Source of the DNA: Stratiformator vulcanicus
GTDB lineage: Bacteria; Planctomycetota; Planctomycetia; Planctomycetales; Planctomycetaceae
Length of the DNA stretch: 64,000 nt
Assembly (NCBI RefSeq): GCF_007744515.1
Contig: NZ_CP036268.1
Span: 5,164,202 to 5,228,201, forward strand
Reading direction: 5' to 3'
Shown: positions 19,327-52,573 of the stretch, piece after piece
Layout: every line of letters starts with the position of its first letter
Numbering within the stretch: position 1 is the stretch's first letter
Position numbers and translations under genes: made by a program
The notes under the pieces: generated by a model
Databases searched by the model: none
What the model was told of the DNA's origin: nothing
Seen by the model: the letters and a program-made list of their open reading frames with translations, nothing else

Positions 19327-21630
19327 ATGTCCGACAGCCCGCTCGACAGCCCCGCCCAATATCTCAAAGGAGCCGGCCCCCGCCGCGCGGCCGCCCTTGA
19401 GAAATTGAACCTCTCGACCGTCCGCGACGTCCTGTTCAACCTGCCGCGCGACGTACTCGATCTGACCGATGTGAAGTCGGCCTCTGAGCTGACAGGCAAG
19501 TCGATCGAGACGGTCCGCGGCGTCGTGGTTGATCGCGACGCCCGGCTAATCTCCCGCGGCCGGTCCATGACCACCATCCTGCTCGACTCTGGCGGCGAGT
19601 ACGTTCGCGGCGTGTGGTTCAACCAGCAGTGGATTCTCAAAAAATACTCCGATGGCGAGCCGCTGCTCTTCAGCGCGAAAGCTAAGAAACGCGACGGCCG
19701 CTGGGAGATGTCGCATCCCAGAGTGCAACAGTTGGGGGAGGACGAGGCGGCGGAGAGTTTAGAGTTGAGGGGTGAGAGGTCAGAGAAAGAATTACTCGAT
19801 CCGCAACCCTCACCTCTCACCTCTCACCCCTCACCTCTCACCACTCCGCATGGCGAGGTCCTCCCGCGGTATTCGCTGGTTGAGGGCCTCACGATGGAGG
19901 CGTTGCGGACGATCTCGCGGGATGCTGTTGATCGGTATGCCGGTGAAGTCAGCGACCCCCTGCCCGCGACGTTTCGGGACGAAGCCGCTCTACCCGAACT
20001 CTCGGACGCGATGCGGGCGCTGCATCGACCGGCGACTGTCGCCGCGTTCGAAGAGGCGAAGCGACGAATTCTGTTTGACGATCTGTTCGAGTTTCAGATC
20101 GGCATGGCGCTGCGCCGCCGGGCGTGGACGGCGACCGACGGCTCGCCGCGCATCGAAACGCCTGCCAAGGTCGACGCCCGCATCCGGCGGCTGTTCCCCT
20201 TTGAATTCACGCCGGGGCAGAATCAGGCGATCCGGGAAATCACGAGCGACCTTGCCACGCCGCGGGCGATGCACCGGCTCCTTCAGGCAGACGTTGGTGC
20301 CGGCAAGACGGTCGTTGCGGTTTACGCGATGCTCTCAGCTATTGCGGCGGGGTATCAGGCGGTCGTGATGGCTCCGACAGAAGTGCTCGCCAATCAGCAT
20401 TGGAAGACGATCGACGCCGCCTTGTCGCGCAGTCGGGTCAAGCGCCGCCTGCTGACCGGCTCGCTGACCCCTGCCGAGCGCAAGCGCACGCTTGCCGACA
20501 TCGCCGAAGGGAAAGTCGACCTCGTGGTTGGCACTCAGGCACTGATTCAAGAAGACGTGACGCTTCCGCGGCTGGGCCTCGCGGTGGTCGACGAACAACA
20601 CAAATTCGGCGTCGCCCAACGCTCGCGATTCGCTCGCGCGAATGAGGTTGAGAGTTTAGAGACGATAGGAGAGCAAGCAGTTAAAGACGCTGACCTCTCG
20701 TCTCTGAACTCTCAACCGGAAGCGTCAGCTCCGCATCTGCTCGTGATGACCGCGACTCCGATTCCGCGATCGTTGTGCCTGACGCAGTTCGGGGATTTGG
20801 ACGTGACGCGGATCACCGATCTCCCCCCCGGTCGGCAGCGCGTCGTGACGAGCCGTGTGGATGGCAAACTGGGACGGAAAAAGGCATGGGAATTCATCCG
20901 CCAACGGCTCGCCGAAGGACGGCAGGCCTACGTCGTCTGCCCACGCATCGAACCGAACGGCGAGGACCTTGATGCCGCGGTGCCGGGGAGCGTGGAGACG
21001 GTGTTCGAGCGGCTTCGCATGAACGAACTGAGCGAGGGGTGGGGCGAGGCGGGAGATCGGACGAACAAAGACTCGCCCGCTCCCGAAGTCGCTCTGCTTC
21101 ACGGGCGGATGTCGTCCGATGAGAAAGACGCCGTGATGACGGCGTTTCGTCGCGGCGACATCCGGGTGCTCGTGACCACCACCGTGATCGAGGTCGGGGT
21201 CGACGTGCCCAACGCGACGTTGATGGTCATCTATCAGGCCAACCGCTTCGGGCTCTCGCAGTTGCATCAGCTCCGCGGACGCATCGGACGCGGTCGGCAC
21301 CAGGGGTATTGCTTCCTGCTGCCCGATGGCGAAACCGACGACGCGACGAAGCGACTGGCGGTGATGGAACAGACGAGCGACGGCTTCAAGATTGCCGAAG
21401 CCGACTTCGAAATCCGTGGTCCCGGCGACGTGCTAGGCACCCGGCAATCGGGGGGCATGCCGCTGCGCGTGGCTCACCCCGGTCGTGATTTGGAGCTGCT
21501 GATCGAGGCACGCCAGCACGCTTTCAACACCGTCGACTCTGGTGCAATTGACGCGGGGGCGTGGGACGAGGTCCGGCAAGTGGTACTCTCACGCTTTGCC
21601 GAAACACTGGACCTGCCGCAGGGCGGGTGA
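19327..21630 (+). CDS. recG: ATP-dependent DNA helicase RecG, with inserted repeat-coded segments
   Basis: 767 residues. RecG reverses stalled replication forks and processes branched DNA. An N-terminal wedge/OB part (YLKGAGPRRAAALEKL) is followed by helicase motif I ADVGAGKT (about residue 320), DEQH with HKFGVAQR, MTATPIPRSL and motif VI LRGRIGRGRHQGYC. It is longer than E. coli RecG (about 693). The excess comes from segments that look inserted: residues 140-175 from a quasi-palindrome at 19753-19846, residues 440-465 from one at 20646-20717, and a weaker one near 21031-21085. All keep the frame. They fall at linkers between structural elements, so the enzyme may still work. Confidence 0.93.
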   Translation: MSDSPLDSPAQYLKGAGPRRAAALEKLNLSTVRDVLFNLPRDVLDLTDVKSASELTGKSIETVRGVVVDRDARLISRGRSMTTILLDSGGEYVRGVWFNQQWILKKYSDGEPLLFSAKAKKRDGRWEMSHPRVQQLGEDEAAESLELRGERSEKELLDPQPSPLTSHPSPLTTPHGEVLPRYSLVEGLTMEALRTISRDAVDRYAGEVSDPLPATFRDEAALPELSDAMRALHRPATVAAFEEAKRRILFDDLFEFQIGMALRRRAWTATDGSPRIETPAKVDARIRRLFPFEFTPGQNQAIREITSDLATPRAMHRLLQADVGAGKTVVAVYAMLSAIAAGYQAVVMAPTEVLANQHWKTIDAALSRSRVKRRLLTGSLTPAERKRTLADIAEGKVDLVVGTQALIQEDVTLPRLGLAVVDEQHKFGVAQRSRFARANEVESLETIGEQAVKDADLSSLNSQPEASAPHLLVMTATPIPRSLCLTQFGDLDVTRITDLPPGRQRVVTSRVDGKLGRKKAWEFIRQRLAEGRQAYVVCPRIEPNGEDLDAAVPGSVETVFERLRMNELSEGWGEAGDRTNKDSPAPEVALLHGRMSSDEKDAVMTAFRRGDIRVLVTTTVIEVGVDVPNATLMVIYQANRFGLSQLHQLRGRIGRGRHQGYCFLLPDGETDDATKRLAVMEQTSDGFKIAEADFEIRGPGDVLGTRQSGGMPLRVAHPGRDLELLIEARQHAFNTVDSGAIDAGAWDEVRQVVLSRFAETLDLPQGG
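19753..19846. repeat. Quasi-palindrome of GAGAGG-type words in frame inside recG
   Basis: The left part has GAGAGTTTAGAGTTGAGG and GTGAGAGGTCAGAG. The right part has CCTCTCACCTCTCACCCC and CTCACCTCTCACC, an inverted, degenerate copy of the same words around a loop of about 20 bases. The translated segment is charged and Ser/Pro-rich and looks unlike RecG, with a PSPLTSHPSPLT repeat. The words also recur elsewhere in this window. Confidence 0.8.
20646..20717. repeat. Second in-frame quasi-palindrome inside recG
   Basis: Arms of 20 bp, 20646-20665 and 20698-20717, are inverted copies with one mismatch (left arm GGTTGAGAGTTTAGAGACGA). The loop is 32 bases. The segment lies between the DEQH motif and TATPIP. 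It uses the same GAGAGTTTAGAG word as the first recG repeat. The reading frame stays open and no stop is introduced. Confidence 0.85.
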
Positions 21631-21638
21631 GCCGGAGA

Positions 21639-21718
21639 GATAGGAAATAGGGGATTGGGGATTGGAAATACGCTGGCAGGCCTGTCCCTTACTCATCCCC
21701 CATCCCCTATTTCCTATC
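21639..21718. repeat. 24-bp inverted repeat directly after recG
   Basis: Arms at 21639-21662 and 21695-21718 are inverted copies with one mismatch; the left begins GATAGGAAATAGGGGATT. The words repeat inside each arm (AGGAAATAGG, GGGGATTGGGGATT). It begins nine bases after the recG stop and is not followed by a T-run, so a terminator role is uncertain. It is the intergenic counterpart of the in-frame repeats within recG. Confidence 0.85.
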
Positions 21719-21778: not shown

Positions 21779-22240
21779 ATGGCTGAAGCACTCAGGGAAC
21801 TGTCGCTGAGCTCGTATCCGGAGATCGCGGCTGAGATCGAGCGGTTGGAGCGCGCGGGTTACCGACCGCTCGGGAAGTGGAATCTCGGGCAAATCTGCAA
21901 GCACCTAAATTACTACTTTCGCGGCTCGCTCGACGGCTTCGGCTTCATGATGCCCTGGCTGGCCCGCAAGTTCTGGGGCCGACCGCTGGTGATGAAATTT
22001 CTGGTCGAAGGCAGCATGCGCCGCGGCCAGATGACCGCCCCGCAATCGGTTCCCAAGGGCGAAGTCGACGATGCGGCGGAAATCGCAGCCGCGAAAGAAT
22101 TGCTCTCGCGGCTGGAAACGGCAGACTCGGTGCACCCCTCACCGCTCGCGGGCGAACTTTCTGTCGAAGAATGGAAGCGGCTGCACTGCATCCACGCCGC
22201 GCACCACCTCAGTTTTCTGGTGCCTGAAGAACAAGAATGA
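21779..22240 (+). CDS. DUF1569 (DinB-like) protein
   Basis: 153 residues. Contains LGKWNLGQICKHLNYYFRGS and, near the end, CIHAAHHLSFL. His residues in these places are the presumed metal ligands of the DinB/YfiT fold (four-helix bundle), which DUF1569 resembles. No known substrate; thiol-transferase-like chemistry is typical for the fold. The ATG at 21779 begins a natural N-terminus (MAEALRELSLSSYP). Its stop codon overlaps a REP unit (22239 on), so the repeat sits right at the gene's end. Confidence 0.8.
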   Translation: MAEALRELSLSSYPEIAAEIERLERAGYRPLGKWNLGQICKHLNYYFRGSLDGFGFMMPWLARKFWGRPLVMKFLVEGSMRRGQMTAPQSVPKGEVDDAAEIAAAKELLSRLETADSVHPSPLAGELSVEEWKRLHCIHAAHHLSFLVPEEQE

Positions 22241-22271
22241 GTGGCACGGACAACGTCCGTATCTCGCGCTG
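22239..22271 (+). repeat. REP unit upstream of RAYT, GTGG foot
   Basis: GAGTGGCACGGACAACGTCCGT: foot GTGG and a hairpin whose stem pairs CACGGAC with GTCCGT. It overlaps the TGA of the DUF1569 gene (22238-22240). The same unit recurs at 22952, 23121, 27653 and 39335. It is the first element of the RAYT flanks. Confidence 0.8.
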
Positions 22272-22283
22272 CTTCATAGCTCG

Positions 22284-22348
22284 ACAAGCCGCGCACGAAG
22301 TAAGCGGATCAACCCGTGCGATATCCGCTCACTTCGTGCGCGGCTTGT
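22284..22348. repeat. 26-bp inverted-repeat element, copy 1
   Basis: Left arm 22284-22309 begins ACAAGCCGCGCACGAAGTAA. Right arm 22323-22348 is its inverted copy with one mismatch. The loop is 13 bases. An exact relative lies at 56876-56947 and a solo arm at 35416-35441. It lies between two REP units upstream of the RAYT. Confidence 0.9.
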
Positions 22349-22374
22349 ATTCGTTGACCTTTCTGACTTCGCTC

Positions 22375-22424
22375 AATGCTCTTGCGGCTGCGCCGCCCGG
22401 ACGGTGTCCGGGCCACACGAGGAG
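22375..22424 (-). repeat. REP unit (inverse orientation) just before RAYT start
   Basis: Two hairpins, GCGGCTGCGCCGC and CCGGACGGTGTCCGG, followed by GCCAC, which is the complement of the GTGG foot. The unit is the mirror of the GTGG-footed REPs. The ribosome-binding site GAGGAG of the RAYT gene begins about three bases past its end, so a folded REP could influence translation. Confidence 0.8.
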
Positions 22425-22433
22425 TTGCTAATT

Positions 22434-22943
22434 ATGCCGGTTTCTAGACGCATTATTGATGACCGGCTCTACGTTCACTTCGTGACGTTTTCTTGCTACC
22501 GGCGTCGGATGCTGCTCGATGCCGACCGATCGAAGCGCATCGTTCTAGGGTGTCTGCATTCCGAAATGCAGCGACAGGCGGCGAAGTGCGTGGGATTCGT
22601 GTTGATGTCGAACCATGTTCACTTTCTGCTCTGGTTCGATGTGACGGACCAGCTCTCACATTTCTTGAAGGATTGGAAGCGGAACAGTTCATCGGAGCTC
22701 GCGACGTTCCTGCGGCGGACTGAATATGGAAAGTCGATTCCTCCCAGTGACCCGATTTGGACGCCGCGGTACTACGCCTTCGAAATTGAGACCACGGGAG
22801 TGCTTGAGCAGAAGCTGAATTACATCCACGACAATCCTGTTCGGGCAGGGATGGTCTCCCGACAGGCCGATTATCGGTGGAGTTCGGCGCGCTGGTACGA
22901 ACGGCGAGAGGATGTCGGTATCCCAATCTCGTGGACTGACTGA
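22434..22943 (+). CDS. REP-associated tyrosine transposase (RAYT, Y1 family)
   Basis: 169 residues, single-domain HUH-type nuclease related to IS200/IS605 transposases. The conserved HUH appears as SNHVHFLLWF, and the usual opening RLYVHFVTFSCYRRR is present. The catalytic Tyr lies in the C-terminal helix region near LNYIHDNPVRAGMV (family motif Y-x-x-x-NP). RAYTs act on REP hairpins and recognise a tetranucleotide at their foot. It is surrounded by such REPs on both sides, so the unit looks like a complete REPtron. ATG 22434 has a strong GAGGAG seven bases upstream. Mobility of the family is generally limited; activity here is inferred only. Confidence 0.9.
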   Translation: MPVSRRIIDDRLYVHFVTFSCYRRRMLLDADRSKRIVLGCLHSEMQRQAAKCVGFVLMSNHVHFLLWFDVTDQLSHFLKDWKRNSSSELATFLRRTEYGKSIPPSDPIWTPRYYAFEIETTGVLEQKLNYIHDNPVRAGMVSRQADYRWSSARWYERREDVGIPISWTD

Positions 22944-23270
22944 ATAAATCAGAGTGGCACGGACAACGTCCGTGTCGCGCAGCGACCAGAGCACTCAGCT
23001 CACCATTTCGAGCTTGTCGGGGCGCTGACCACAATCGAAAGAGTCAGCTGAATGCTCTTGCGGCTGCGCCGCCCGGACGATGTCCGGGCCACACGAGGAA
23101 TTGATTGACTGAATAGACCAGAGTGGCACGGACACCGTCCGTGTCGCGCAGCGACCAGAGCACTCAGCTCACTGTTTCGAGCTTGTCGGGGCGCTGACCA
23201 TTATCGAAAAAGTCAGCTGAATGCTCCCGCGGCTGCGCCGCCGGGACGATGTCCGGGCCACACCGGCAAA
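22933..23270. repeat. Tandem duplication of a 169-bp REP-pair unit after RAYT
   Basis: Copies at 22933-23101 and 23102-23270. Each contains the last bases of the RAYT gene (TGACTGAAT), a GTGG-foot REP (GTGGCACGGAC...GTCCGTG then GTCGCGCAGCGAC), a spacer with GAGCTTGTCGGGGCGCTGACC, and an inverse REP (GCGGCTGCGCCGC, CCGG...TCCGGGCCAC). The two differ at scattered bases, such as ACAACG versus ACACCG, so the duplication is not brand new. Confidence 0.85.
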
Positions 23271-49098: not shown

Positions 49099-50865
49099 AT
49101 GACGAATCCTGCGCCAAATTCTTCTCCTAATCCCAATTTCGACGAAGAATGGCTCGCCAACGCGGTTGCCTACATATCAACGCAACCCGATGCAGTGAAT
49201 GCACTTACGGAGAAAATCGCTGAAAATCCGGCCGCAGAGCAGGATCTGAGAGAGTTGGCCGCACTCGCCGAGATGGCCAACGACCTCGGTTCCGGATGGT
49301 TTGACGAGACCGCCCCCGCCATCGCCCCGAGCGATTCGGCGCCTTCTCCGACCCTCGATGACTACGAAATTCTGGGCGAACTGGGCCGCGGGGGAATGGG
49401 AGTCGTCTACCGGGCCCGGCAGAAGAGCCTCAATCGCATCGTCGCTTTGAAGATGCTCCGGCTGAGCGAACTCACCACGCCCGAGGAACGGGCGCGGTTT
49501 GAAGCCGAAGCCGAGGCGGCAGCGGCGCTGGCCTACCCGCACATCGTCCCGATCCACGACATCGGCATGGTCGACCGCGACGGACAGGCCGTCCCGTTCT
49601 TCAGCATGAAATTGATCGAGGGGGAAACGCTGGCCGACCGCATCGCGACCGGCCCTCTGCCCCCGCATCAAATCGCCCGTTTGCTCGTGCCCATCTGCCG
49701 CGCGATCGACTATGCCCACTCTCAAGGCGTCCTGCACCGCGATCTGAAGCCGTCGAATATCTTGATCGACCCGGAGGGCCGGCCGTACGTGAGCGACTTC
49801 GGCTTGGCGAAGCGGGTCGCGGGTCGATGGGGTGAGGCGCGGGAGACGAGCGATCGAGAGACCGAGGCCGCAGTTCTTGCTTCCTCTCCCCCGATTCTCT
49901 CGTCTCCCTCGCTCACTCAAACCGGCGCCGTCCTCGGCACTCCGGCTTACATGTCCCCCGAACAAGCGGCCGGCAATCGGGGGGACATCGGCCCGCGGTC
50001 CGATGTTTATTCGTTGGGGGCGATCCTTTATGCCTGCCTGGCGGGACGGCCGCCATTTCAGGGGGCCACGCCGGTTGATATTCTCTTAAGAGTCTTAGAA
50101 CAGGACGCCCCGCCGCCGCGAACGATTCATCCGAATTGCGACCGCGATCTGGAATTAATCGCTGTGAAGTGCCTGCAGAAGCCGGCCGATTTACGGTATG
50201 AATCGGCCGGCACTCTAGCCGATGATTTAGAGCGCTATCTCGCCAGTGAACCTCTCGCCGCGCGCAGCGGTCGGTTCAGCGGCATCTTTACTCGGGCCTT
50301 TCGCGAGACGCACCATGCTACGGTATTGGAGAACTGGGGCCTGCTATGGATGTGGCACGCCCTCGCGCTCTTAATACTTTGCGTCGTGACGAATGCCTTA
50401 CAGCTCGGTGCGGCCGACGGCGTCATCAGCGGATTAAGTACGTCGCGCTGGCCCTATTTATTTCTCTGGACCGTCGGCCTCGGTCTGTGGGCAGTGATCT
50501 TCTGGAACCTCCGCAAACGCAGCGGACCGATCACGTTCGTCGAACGCCAGATCGCCCACACCTGGGCCGGAGCCATGGCGGGCTCGACCTTGCTTTACGC
50601 CATTGAGTGGACCCTCAACCTGCCGGTTTTAAGTCTCTCGCCAGTTCTCGCCCTGCTCGCCGGGATTACCTTCTTAGTCAAAGCCGGCATCCTCACGGGA
50701 AGGTTTTATCTCCAAGCCGCCGTCCTCTTCGCCACCTCGGTCGTCATGGCCGCCTGGGAAAGCTGGTCCGAACGAACCGGCGTACCGAACCTGAGCATCA
50801 CGCTCTTCGGGGTTGTGAGCGGGCTGTGCTTTTTAGTGCCGGGATGGCGATATTGGCGTCGTTAA
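49099..50865 (+). CDS. PknB-type Ser/Thr kinase with repeat-coded activation-loop insertion
   Basis: 588 residues. N-terminal 90 residues are acidic, as in planctomycete kinases. Kinase domain: YEILGELGRGGMGVVYRARQ (Gly loop), VALKML (Lys), HRDLKPSNIL (catalytic loop), DFGLAKR and PAYMSPEQA. Between DFG and APE-like motifs about 30 residues more than usual, including RWGEARETSDRETEAAV and PPILSSPSLTQTG, are encoded by a quasi-palindrome at 49829-49916. After about 400, four membrane helices (WMWHALALLILCVVTNALQL and others) form an unknown C-terminal sensor. The ATG at 49099 is the only sensible start. Confidence 0.9.
   Translation: MTNPAPNSSPNPNFDEEWLANAVAYISTQPDAVNALTEKIAENPAAEQDLRELAALAEMANDLGSGWFDETAPAIAPSDSAPSPTLDDYEILGELGRGGMGVVYRARQKSLNRIVALKMLRLSELTTPEERARFEAEAEAAAALAYPHIVPIHDIGMVDRDGQAVPFFSMKLIEGETLADRIATGPLPPHQIARLLVPICRAIDYAHSQGVLHRDLKPSNILIDPEGRPYVSDFGLAKRVAGRWGEARETSDRETEAAVLASSPPILSSPSLTQTGAVLGTPAYMSPEQAAGNRGDIGPRSDVYSLGAILYACLAGRPPFQGATPVDILLRVLEQDAPPPRTIHPNCDRDLELIAVKCLQKPADLRYESAGTLADDLERYLASEPLAARSGRFSGIFTRAFRETHHATVLENWGLLWMWHALALLILCVVTNALQLGAADGVISGLSTSRWPYLFLWTVGLGLWAVIFWNLRKRSGPITFVERQIAHTWAGAMAGSTLLYAIEWTLNLPVLSLSPVLALLAGITFLVKAGILTGRFYLQAAVLFATSVVMAAWESWSERTGVPNLSITLFGVVSGLCFLVPGWRYWRR
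49829..49916. repeat. Quasi-palindrome in the kinase activation-loop coding region
   Basis: Left GGGTGAGGCGCGGGAGACG with AGCGATCGAGAGACC, right CCTCTCCCCCGATTCTCTCG and TCTCCCTCGCTCACTC, an inverted degenerate copy. The stretch has the same makeup (purine-rich words on one arm, pyrimidine-rich on the other) as the two in recG and keeps the frame. Confidence 0.65.
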
Positions 50866-51010
50866 TTTGAAAACAGTACCGTAAAATGGTACTATCATAC
50901 CTGCATTGCTTTCTGGCTTGCGAACCAGAATTCCTCGTTGAGGAGAGCAGTTGCCCCTTCGGAGACGAAAGCCCGATGACAATTACTCATCTTGTCGAGA
51001 AGCTGTCGCA

Positions 51011-51268
51011 ATGCAAAAGCACAGGAAGATGCTGCATTCGATATTTGAGGAGCCTGTCAAATCAAATCTCGCGTGGCGAGATATTGAAAGCATGCTCAAG
51101 TGGCTCGGTTCTGATGTGAGAGAGGGCCGTGGATCTCGTGTGCGGGTCGCTCTCAATGGGGTGCGAGCTGTATTTCACCGACCACATCCTGCGCCGGAAG
51201 CGAGTCGAGCTCAGATTAGGTCCGTACGAAGGTTCTTAATTGAGGCAGGTGTTGATCAGTACCGTTGA
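51011..51268 (+). CDS. hicA: HicA-type toxin
   Basis: 85 residues. Ribosome-independent mRNA interferase family. KHRKMLHSIFEEPVKSNLAW, then the DRBD-like fold WRDIESMLKWLGSDVREGRG, SRVRVALNGVRAVFHRPHP and AQIRSVRRFLIEAGV. The His in FHRPHP matches the PHP of the longer HicA branch. ATG 51011 begins MQKHRKM. It is followed 27 bases on by a HicB antitoxin gene; HicA before HicB is the common order. Together they form a type II toxin-antitoxin module next to dapF. Confidence 0.85.
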   Translation: MQKHRKMLHSIFEEPVKSNLAWRDIESMLKWLGSDVREGRGSRVRVALNGVRAVFHRPHPAPEASRAQIRSVRRFLIEAGVDQYR

Positions 51269-51295
51269 CGTGATCATCAACTTTTGGACAAGCAT

Positions 51296-51622
51296 GTGAT
51301 TGAATACCAAGGCTATTTCGGCCGCATCGAGTTCGACGACTCGGCCGATATTTTTCACGGCGAGGTACTCGGCATTCGGGACGTGATTACGTTCGAAGGT
51401 CGGTCAGTGGAAGAACTTAAGCAGGCGTTTCGCGACTCTGTCGACGACTACATCGAATTTTGCACTGAGCGGGGCGAGGAGCCGGAGAAGCCGTTTTCGG
51501 GGAAATTTCTACTTAGGCTCGGTCCCGATCTTCACCGGCGCGTTTCGGCTCAGGCCGAGGCATCCGGCAAGAGCCTCAATGCGTGGATCAGCGAGCGATT
51601 GGAAGAGTCGAGCGCTTCTTGA
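51296..51622 (+). CDS. hicB: HicB-type antitoxin
   Basis: About 108 residues. The N-terminal half is the HicB RNase-H-like fold (IEYQGYFGRIEFDDSADIFH, GEVLGIRDVITFEGRSVEEL and DSVDDYIEF), then a C-terminal DNA-binding part of ribbon-helix-helix type, with SGKFLLRLGPDLHRRVSAQAEASGKSLNAW. It should neutralise HicA and repress the pair. No ATG fits; GTG 51296 gives the standard IEYQGY start, TTG 51284 is an alternative. Ends 21 bases before the convergent dapF stop. Confidence 0.87.
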   Translation: MIEYQGYFGRIEFDDSADIFHGEVLGIRDVITFEGRSVEELKQAFRDSVDDYIEFCTERGEEPEKPFSGKFLLRLGPDLHRRVSAQAEASGKSLNAWISERLEESSAS

Positions 51623-51643: not shown

Positions 51644-52573
51644 TCATGCCGCTTTCGCGAACTGATCCGGCTGTTCCCACGCCACCACCCCCACCGTCAC
51701 GGCCGGCCCGGTTAATCGAATCTGACTACCGGCATTAATCCAGCTCACCTGCAGGTCGCCGCCGGGGAGGTGGCAGGTGGCGTCGCGGTTTAAGAGGCCC
51801 GCGTGAATGCCTGCGGCAATGGCCGCGCAGGCGCCGGTGCCGCAGGCAGCGGTTTCGCCCACGCCGCGTTCCCAGACGCGGAGGGCTACGTCGGTTCGGG
51901 AATTAATTCTCGCAAATTCAACGTTGGTGCGATCGGGGAAGGCGGGATGAGTCTCAATGGCCGGACCGAGTTCGTGAATTAATTCATCGCTTAACTCGTC
52001 GACGAAGAACACGCAGTGGGGATTGCCGACTTGGACGACGGTTGAGGGTTGCGGGACGACGGAGAGATCGGCTTGGCGGAGCTCTTGGAGCGGCCAGATT
52101 TTATAGCGATCGGGAGGCGGTCCCTGGAGTCCCTTGCTTGCGCTGCGGGCTTGTGTGTTTTTGTCCTCTCGCCTCTCGCCTCTGGCCTCTAGCCTCACAT
52201 TCCCCATCCACACGCTGACGCTGACAACTTCGCCCGCGACAACTTCAAGTGTGAGTTCTCGCTTGCCCGAAGCGGTGGCGATCGTGGCGTCTTTGCGGCG
52301 GATGTATTTGTGGTCGTAAAGATATTTCCCGACGCAACGCAGGCCATTGCCGCAGGCGCCGGCTTCGCTGCCGTCGGCGTTAAAGATCCGCATGCGGGCG
52401 TCAAGGCCGCTGGCGTGCTCCAACACGATGAGCCCATCGGCCCCGGGACCGGTCGAGCGATCACAGGCTCGCGCCGCGATCGAAGCGAAGTCGAGATGCG
52501 GGGGAAGGGGGAGATCGAGGCCATCAATGAGCAGGAATTCGTTTCCCGCTCCGTGCATTTTAGTGAAGAGCAT
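51644..52573 (-). CDS. dapF: Diaminopimelate epimerase with a repeat-coded insertion
   Basis: 309 residues; typical DapF is about 275. Interconverts LL- and meso-diaminopimelate for peptidoglycan and lysine. Both catalytic Cys motifs are intact: ACGNGLRC and AACGTGACA. MLFTKMHGAGNEFLLIDGL opens it. The excess is about residues 125-155: RLEARGERREDKNTQARSA then SKGLQGPPPD. This peptide is encoded by the 26-bp element at 52129-52154 and by CCTCTCGCC-like words at 52165-52198, so mobile-type DNA has been absorbed without frame loss. It lies on a surface loop, since both active-site regions are far from it in sequence. Confidence 0.92.
   Translation of the reverse strand: MLFTKMHGAGNEFLLIDGLDLPLPPHLDFASIAARACDRSTGPGADGLIVLEHASGLDARMRIFNADGSEAGACGNGLRCVGKYLYDHKYIRRKDATIATASGKRELTLEVVAGEVVSVSVWMGNVRLEARGERREDKNTQARSASKGLQGPPPDRYKIWPLQELRQADLSVVPQPSTVVQVGNPHCVFFVDELSDELIHELGPAIETHPAFPDRTNVEFARINSRTDVALRVWERGVGETAACGTGACAAIAAGIHAGLLNRDATCHLPGGDLQVSWINAGSQIRLTGPAVTVGVVAWEQPDQFAKAA
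52129..52154 (-). repeat. 26-bp element translated in frame inside dapF
   Basis: On the minus strand it reads ACAAGCCCGCAGCGCAAGCA followed by AGGGAC, encoding T-Q-A-R-S-A-S-K-G within DapF (frame offset by the neighbouring codon). Other copies are at 39465-39489 and 54479-54504, both intergenic. It is the clearest case of a repeat family entering a coding region in this window. Confidence 0.9.
52160..52199. repeat. Pyrimidine word repeat inside dapF
   Basis: A run of CCTCTCGCCTCTCGCCTCTG and GCCTCTAGCCTC repeats the seven-base word CCTCTCG or variants. It is translated in DapF as part of the E-A-R-G-E-R-R-E segment on the minus strand. No inverted arm was found within it. Confidence 0.7.

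Follow-up and report, generated by a model that had tools for sequence, protein, structure and literature searches.

Palindromic DNA repeats have probably been captured in frame, and recurrently, within one insertion-tolerant loop of a planctomycete kinase. In the mechanism that we propose, a palindromic DNA element would have inserted in frame in a membrane kinase found throughout the planctomycete family, between its DFG and its TQTG phospho-motif. The DFG-TQTG stretch may tolerate change in both length and sequence and, being tolerant, would time and again have preserved the palindromic repeats active in the lineage concerned, the spacer presumably being retained since it is harmless. The loop thus looks like a tolerated landing pad used recurrently by such DNA, and less like a single regulatory innovation. 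The elements captured so far would comprise at least four unrelated ones in relatives plus that of the window, i.e. the whole stretch of 64,000 nucleotides analysed here. Insertion of dispersed repeats in the relatives is well supported; by analogy, the window's copy would have inserted as theirs did, and its effect is likely to be neutral or mild.

The window kinase displays the complete Hanks-type signature (Gly-rich loop, VAxK Lys, HRDxKPxN, DFG and SPE/APE), and its nearest PDB entry is M. tuberculosis PknB (1MRU). The two proteins share the family, the motifs and an aligned TQT phospho-motif, but differ in that the window kinase has its own C-terminal multi-helix hydrophobic part, which is common to all 127 orthologues used, and 25 extra residues before TQT. 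The alignment with 1MRU contains one gap, of exactly these 25 residues, and shortly past it the TQT of the kinase aligns with PknB T171/T173. Directly downstream of the kinase gene lies a HicA toxin and HicB antitoxin pair (50951-51268 and 51284-51622, + strand).

Table 1. The kinase gene, its activation segment and the arms of the quasi-palindrome (positions in the window).
Feature	Position	Strand	Basis and remarks
PknB-like (Hanks-type) Ser/Thr kinase gene, 588 aa, membrane-linked	49099-50865	+	Pfam Pkinase E = 7.4e-40; PknB 1MRU 2e-55; orthologues
DFG-to-GTP part of activation segment, 47 residues (kinase residues 233-279)	49795-49935	+	motif-to-motif loop lengths
25 residues without counterpart in PknB: RWGEARETSDRETEAAVLASSPPIL, residues 243-267	49825-49899	+	phmmer alignment with 1MRU
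Left arm of quasi-palindrome, purine-rich (74% purine)	49830-49868	+	gapped arm alignment, ends approximate
Right arm of quasi-palindrome, pyrimidine-rich (83% purine on complementary strand)	49880-49920	+	gapped arm alignment, ends approximate
TQTG motif, residues 273-276, matching PknB T171/T173	49915-49926	+	1MRU alignment, orthologues

A quasi-palindrome (49830-49920) sits in frame within the kinase gene, with core arms of 17 nt at 49837-49853 and 49896-49912 that are 88% complementary. The match greatly exceeds chance expectation: local self-complementarity scores 22, with no score of 17 or more anywhere in the dinucleotide-shuffled 64 kb; the RNA fold of 49820-49930 reaches -56.6 kcal/mol (z = -3.2), with 0 of 200 shuffles as good; and when the letters of the window loop itself are shuffled, the palindrome stands at z = 8.5. 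The inverted repeat is confirmed where the initial annotation had put it, at the right coordinates and in frame in the kinase. The accompanying claim that the repeat encodes extra activation-segment residues also holds. Since the region is compositionally skewed, purine-rich and then pyrimidine-rich, the palindrome might be no more than what a low-complexity loop rich in Ser, Glu, Arg and Pro yields by chance, but self-complementarity above that of all shuffles, together with the z value against letter shuffles of the loop, makes this highly improbable.

Loop length was counted from DFG to the residue preceding GTPAYMSPE. By this measure the 47-residue loop is unusual in comparison with own-genome paralogues and less so in comparison with orthologues. 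The paralogues that could be read have 20-23 loop residues, which makes the window kinase 24-27 residues longer, and the other kinases read have loops of 18-26 residues. Across the 127 orthologues (123 distinct loops) the loop ranges from 21 to 68 residues with a median of 31, and the window loop lies ~16 residues above this median. The segment had been described as having about 30 residues more than usual: extra length there is, but its size is nearer 25 by 1MRU and ~16 when set against the orthologue median. As to homologues sharing both the length and the residues of the loop, several orthologues have loops of similar length, but their residues are unrelated to those of the window kinase, which indicates that the insert is lineage-specific and that many members of the family have long loops. 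Loops of 21-22 residues are found in more distant orthologues (L080, L081, L084-L090), which suggests that a short loop may be ancestral. Long loops arise without palindromes too, as seen in the 43-aa palindrome-free loop of L203, the third row of the window's weakly supported tree group. In L076 the long loop consists of arrayed CCATCAG-like words with no inverted arm.

Twelve of the 123 distinct loops have a palindrome z > 4, each of these 12 being at least 40 aa long, and the loop palindromes represent five kinds without relation to one another, that of the window included. The best-scoring relative, G020 (60% identity), carries in its loop a palindrome other than the window's, and the loop palindrome of G162 encodes TRSVSEG..SPSLTLRVG. 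In the genus coded g72, the QHDAPASG and VGHVSNVP..KHVENVLH elements are both present in one genome, in two gene copies (G139; L178 and L200). These elements are high-copy repeats in the genomes that carry them: QHDAPASG in G140, G139 and G134, VGHVSNVP in G139, G140 and G141, TRSVSEG in G162 and the G020 loop element in its own genome. Each of the four relatives' elements has about 60-80 matches above threshold in its host genome, counts that include both strands of a palindrome and were obtained with only the 40 first-look candidates scored. When the loop elements were aligned with one another, most pairs were no better than shuffles, with 12 of 300 shuffles as good as the best pair (L176-L178). 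Descent of the window palindrome and the G020 palindrome from one ancestor was rejected, the alignment being at chance level (88 of 300 shuffles as good). The inserts start at differing residues across the orthologue loops, which would fit tolerance of a region, not one target sequence.

Strong palindromes (score of at least 22) are concentrated in the loop: its 12.5 kb of DNA contain eight, and the remaining 201 kb of reading-frame DNA contain one. The loop makes up 6% of the orthologue open-frame DNA yet holds eight of the nine, a ratio for which a binomial value overstates the case as the rows are related by descent. The ninth (L189, ~nt 250-330 of the open frame, REGEAPAEP..ARREPRPP) is a long way upstream of the kinase domain and may precede the true start, outside the gene. 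On a tree of the orthologues built without the loop, the presence of an element takes at least four changes and element identity takes seven; since many forks of this tree are weak, the safe count of independent events is four to five as a minimum. In G140, ~2 of 20 QHDAPASG copies lie in frame deep inside other genes, and so intragenic capture is ordinary for such repeats. Though intragenic insertion is ordinary, one would not expect the same loop to be hit repeatedly. The kinase gene was chosen since one insert was already there, and therefore only the additional events in relatives count as evidence.

A multi-copy family for the window element was rejected: blastn of its own genome returned no significant match to a second copy, and a search for the word GAGAGTTTAGAGTT was not clearly above the reversed-word control. 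Being single-copy, the palindrome could have been made in place by template-switch (strand-switch) copying, as an inverted copy of one arm, and the kinase arms do match each other far better than any other palindrome tested. However, both arms are new relative to the short-loop orthologues and PknB, so that a single inverted copying of older sequence would be insufficient. The loop element is, moreover, a dispersed repeat in relatives of three other genera, and the purine-first, GAG-rich anatomy of the window kinase arms is shared with other palindromes of this genome, as surveyed in a 400-kb sample of stretches, part of one of them masked N. We consider template switching unlikely and favour in-frame insertion of a palindromic element.

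The insert had also been called the same type of DNA as in recG. The likeness extends to purine-first, GAG-like inverted-repeat anatomy and composition, but not clearly to alignable arms: eight comparisons of kinase with recG arms against composition-matched shuffles gave p values of 0.04-0.45. Among themselves, the arms of recG and dapF do align, mostly at p < 0.02. Compared with T. maritima RecG (1GM5), recG (19327-21630, + strand) has quasi-palindromic inserts at two sites, both in frame (nt 19736-19865 and 20646-20717), the arms of which are mutually alignable GAGAGTTTAGAG-like words, and a third recG-like palindrome (GATAGGAAATAGGGG) is located at 21639-21718, just past the recG stop codon. 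The dapF gene (51644-52573, - strand) has ~20 residues (ARGERREDKNTQARSASKGLQ) beyond DapF 2OTN, and the DNA that encodes them consists of GAG-type words and, after these, a CAAGCCCGCAGCGCAAGCAAGGG stretch. The window further contains an IS200-like (Y1_Tnp, RAYT-type) transposase gene (22434-22943, + strand) with REP-like palindrome clusters on both sides (22239-22427 and 22952-23263), and this gene and its flanking palindromes are likely to form a RAYT-REP unit. The kinase palindrome is absent beside this one RAYT-type gene examined, its flanks being other palindromes (GTGGCACGGAC.., ACAAGCCGCG..). Inverted short-word arrays (GTCAGCTGTCAGC, GAAGCGAGAAGCG) at L166 17541-18603 and L158 15931-16055, outside longer open frames, show that this genome has word palindromes of a second style. 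A word palindrome at L158 17300-17391 was considered as intragenic and rejected, as it sits upstream of the gene's likely true start.

The motifs of the kinase are strongly conserved around the variable loop. DFG is invariant in 127 of 127 orthologues, as are the Thr and Gly of TxTG, the third position of which is Ser/Thr in 125; the Thr matching PknB T171 is present in every orthologue, HRDxKP in 124 and VAxK in 126. AlphaFold2, run on an input alignment of 17 rows, assigned pLDDT < 50 to residues 235-278 inside a confident kinase fold, a low value being expected for disorder and no proof of it. The insert probably forms a disordered spacer, with no damage to the kinase fold, the activation Thr or the P+1 loop.

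Such an insertion might instead be adaptive, giving the activation loop additional Ser/Thr residues for phosphorylation or a segment for regulatory docking. The insert lies directly 5' of the phospho-motif and has several Ser/Thr, and of all kinases read, those of this orthologue group are the only ones with long loops. However, the inserted peptides of different lineages are unrelated in sequence, and without a common sequence no conserved phosphosite is created; the segment is modelled without confidence, like disordered loops; and the TxTG motif is the same with or without inserts. Adaptive gain of phosphosites is therefore disfavoured, and we regard it as improbable. A rather unlikely possibility is that selfish palindromic repeats keep rewriting this regulatory segment, with the activation loop acting as a landing pad that would give a lineage-specific loop and, possibly, a different activation threshold. 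The suggestion made with the initial annotation, that the insertion could alter regulation or create new phosphosites, gains no support from the sequences compared, in which the activation Thr/Ser and the catalytic motifs are conserved; tolerance of the loop would account for the pattern more simply.

Palindromic repeats read in frame are already known from two systems. As far as the account cited in PMC3733652 goes, Rickettsia palindromic elements (RPEs) lie in frame in protein genes and form multi-copy families over many genes. The window element resembles RPEs in being palindromic DNA read through in frame in the gene of a functional protein, with an insert of similar size (tens of residues), and the elements of G020, G139, G140 and G162 additionally form multi-copy families in their own genomes. 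It differs from RPEs in that the window copy is single, without the multi-copy trait by blastn of its own genome, and in that one loop of one gene receives unrelated elements in different genera. Intragenic REPs of the GTAG/CGTC families encode 20-30 aa, occurring as dimers or groups in many genes, and Planctomycetes are among the REP-bearing phyla (PMC3733652). In Xanthomonas recB, two different REPs are found at about the same site in two species (PMC3733652). The likeness to intragenic REPs lies in the in-frame palindromes in genes; the differences are that the window element is not multi-copy and that here at least five unrelated elements are found in one kinase activation loop, in four genera. 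In the literature searched, which mostly excludes subscription journals, no paper came to light that describes repeated capture within the activation loop of a kinase. It is the recurrence in the kinase activation loop that is the new part, in-frame palindromic repeats as such (RPEs and intragenic REPs) being known.

In-frame palindromic repeats are commonly viewed as accidents scattered over genomes. In this kinase, by contrast, unrelated repeats have been retained by orthologues of several genera in a single regulatory loop, and the adjoining phospho-motif has stayed constant. The resulting natural series of loops, from 21 to 68 residues, bears on how far an activation loop may be stretched before kinase control changes, as well as on how repeat DNA turns into protein.
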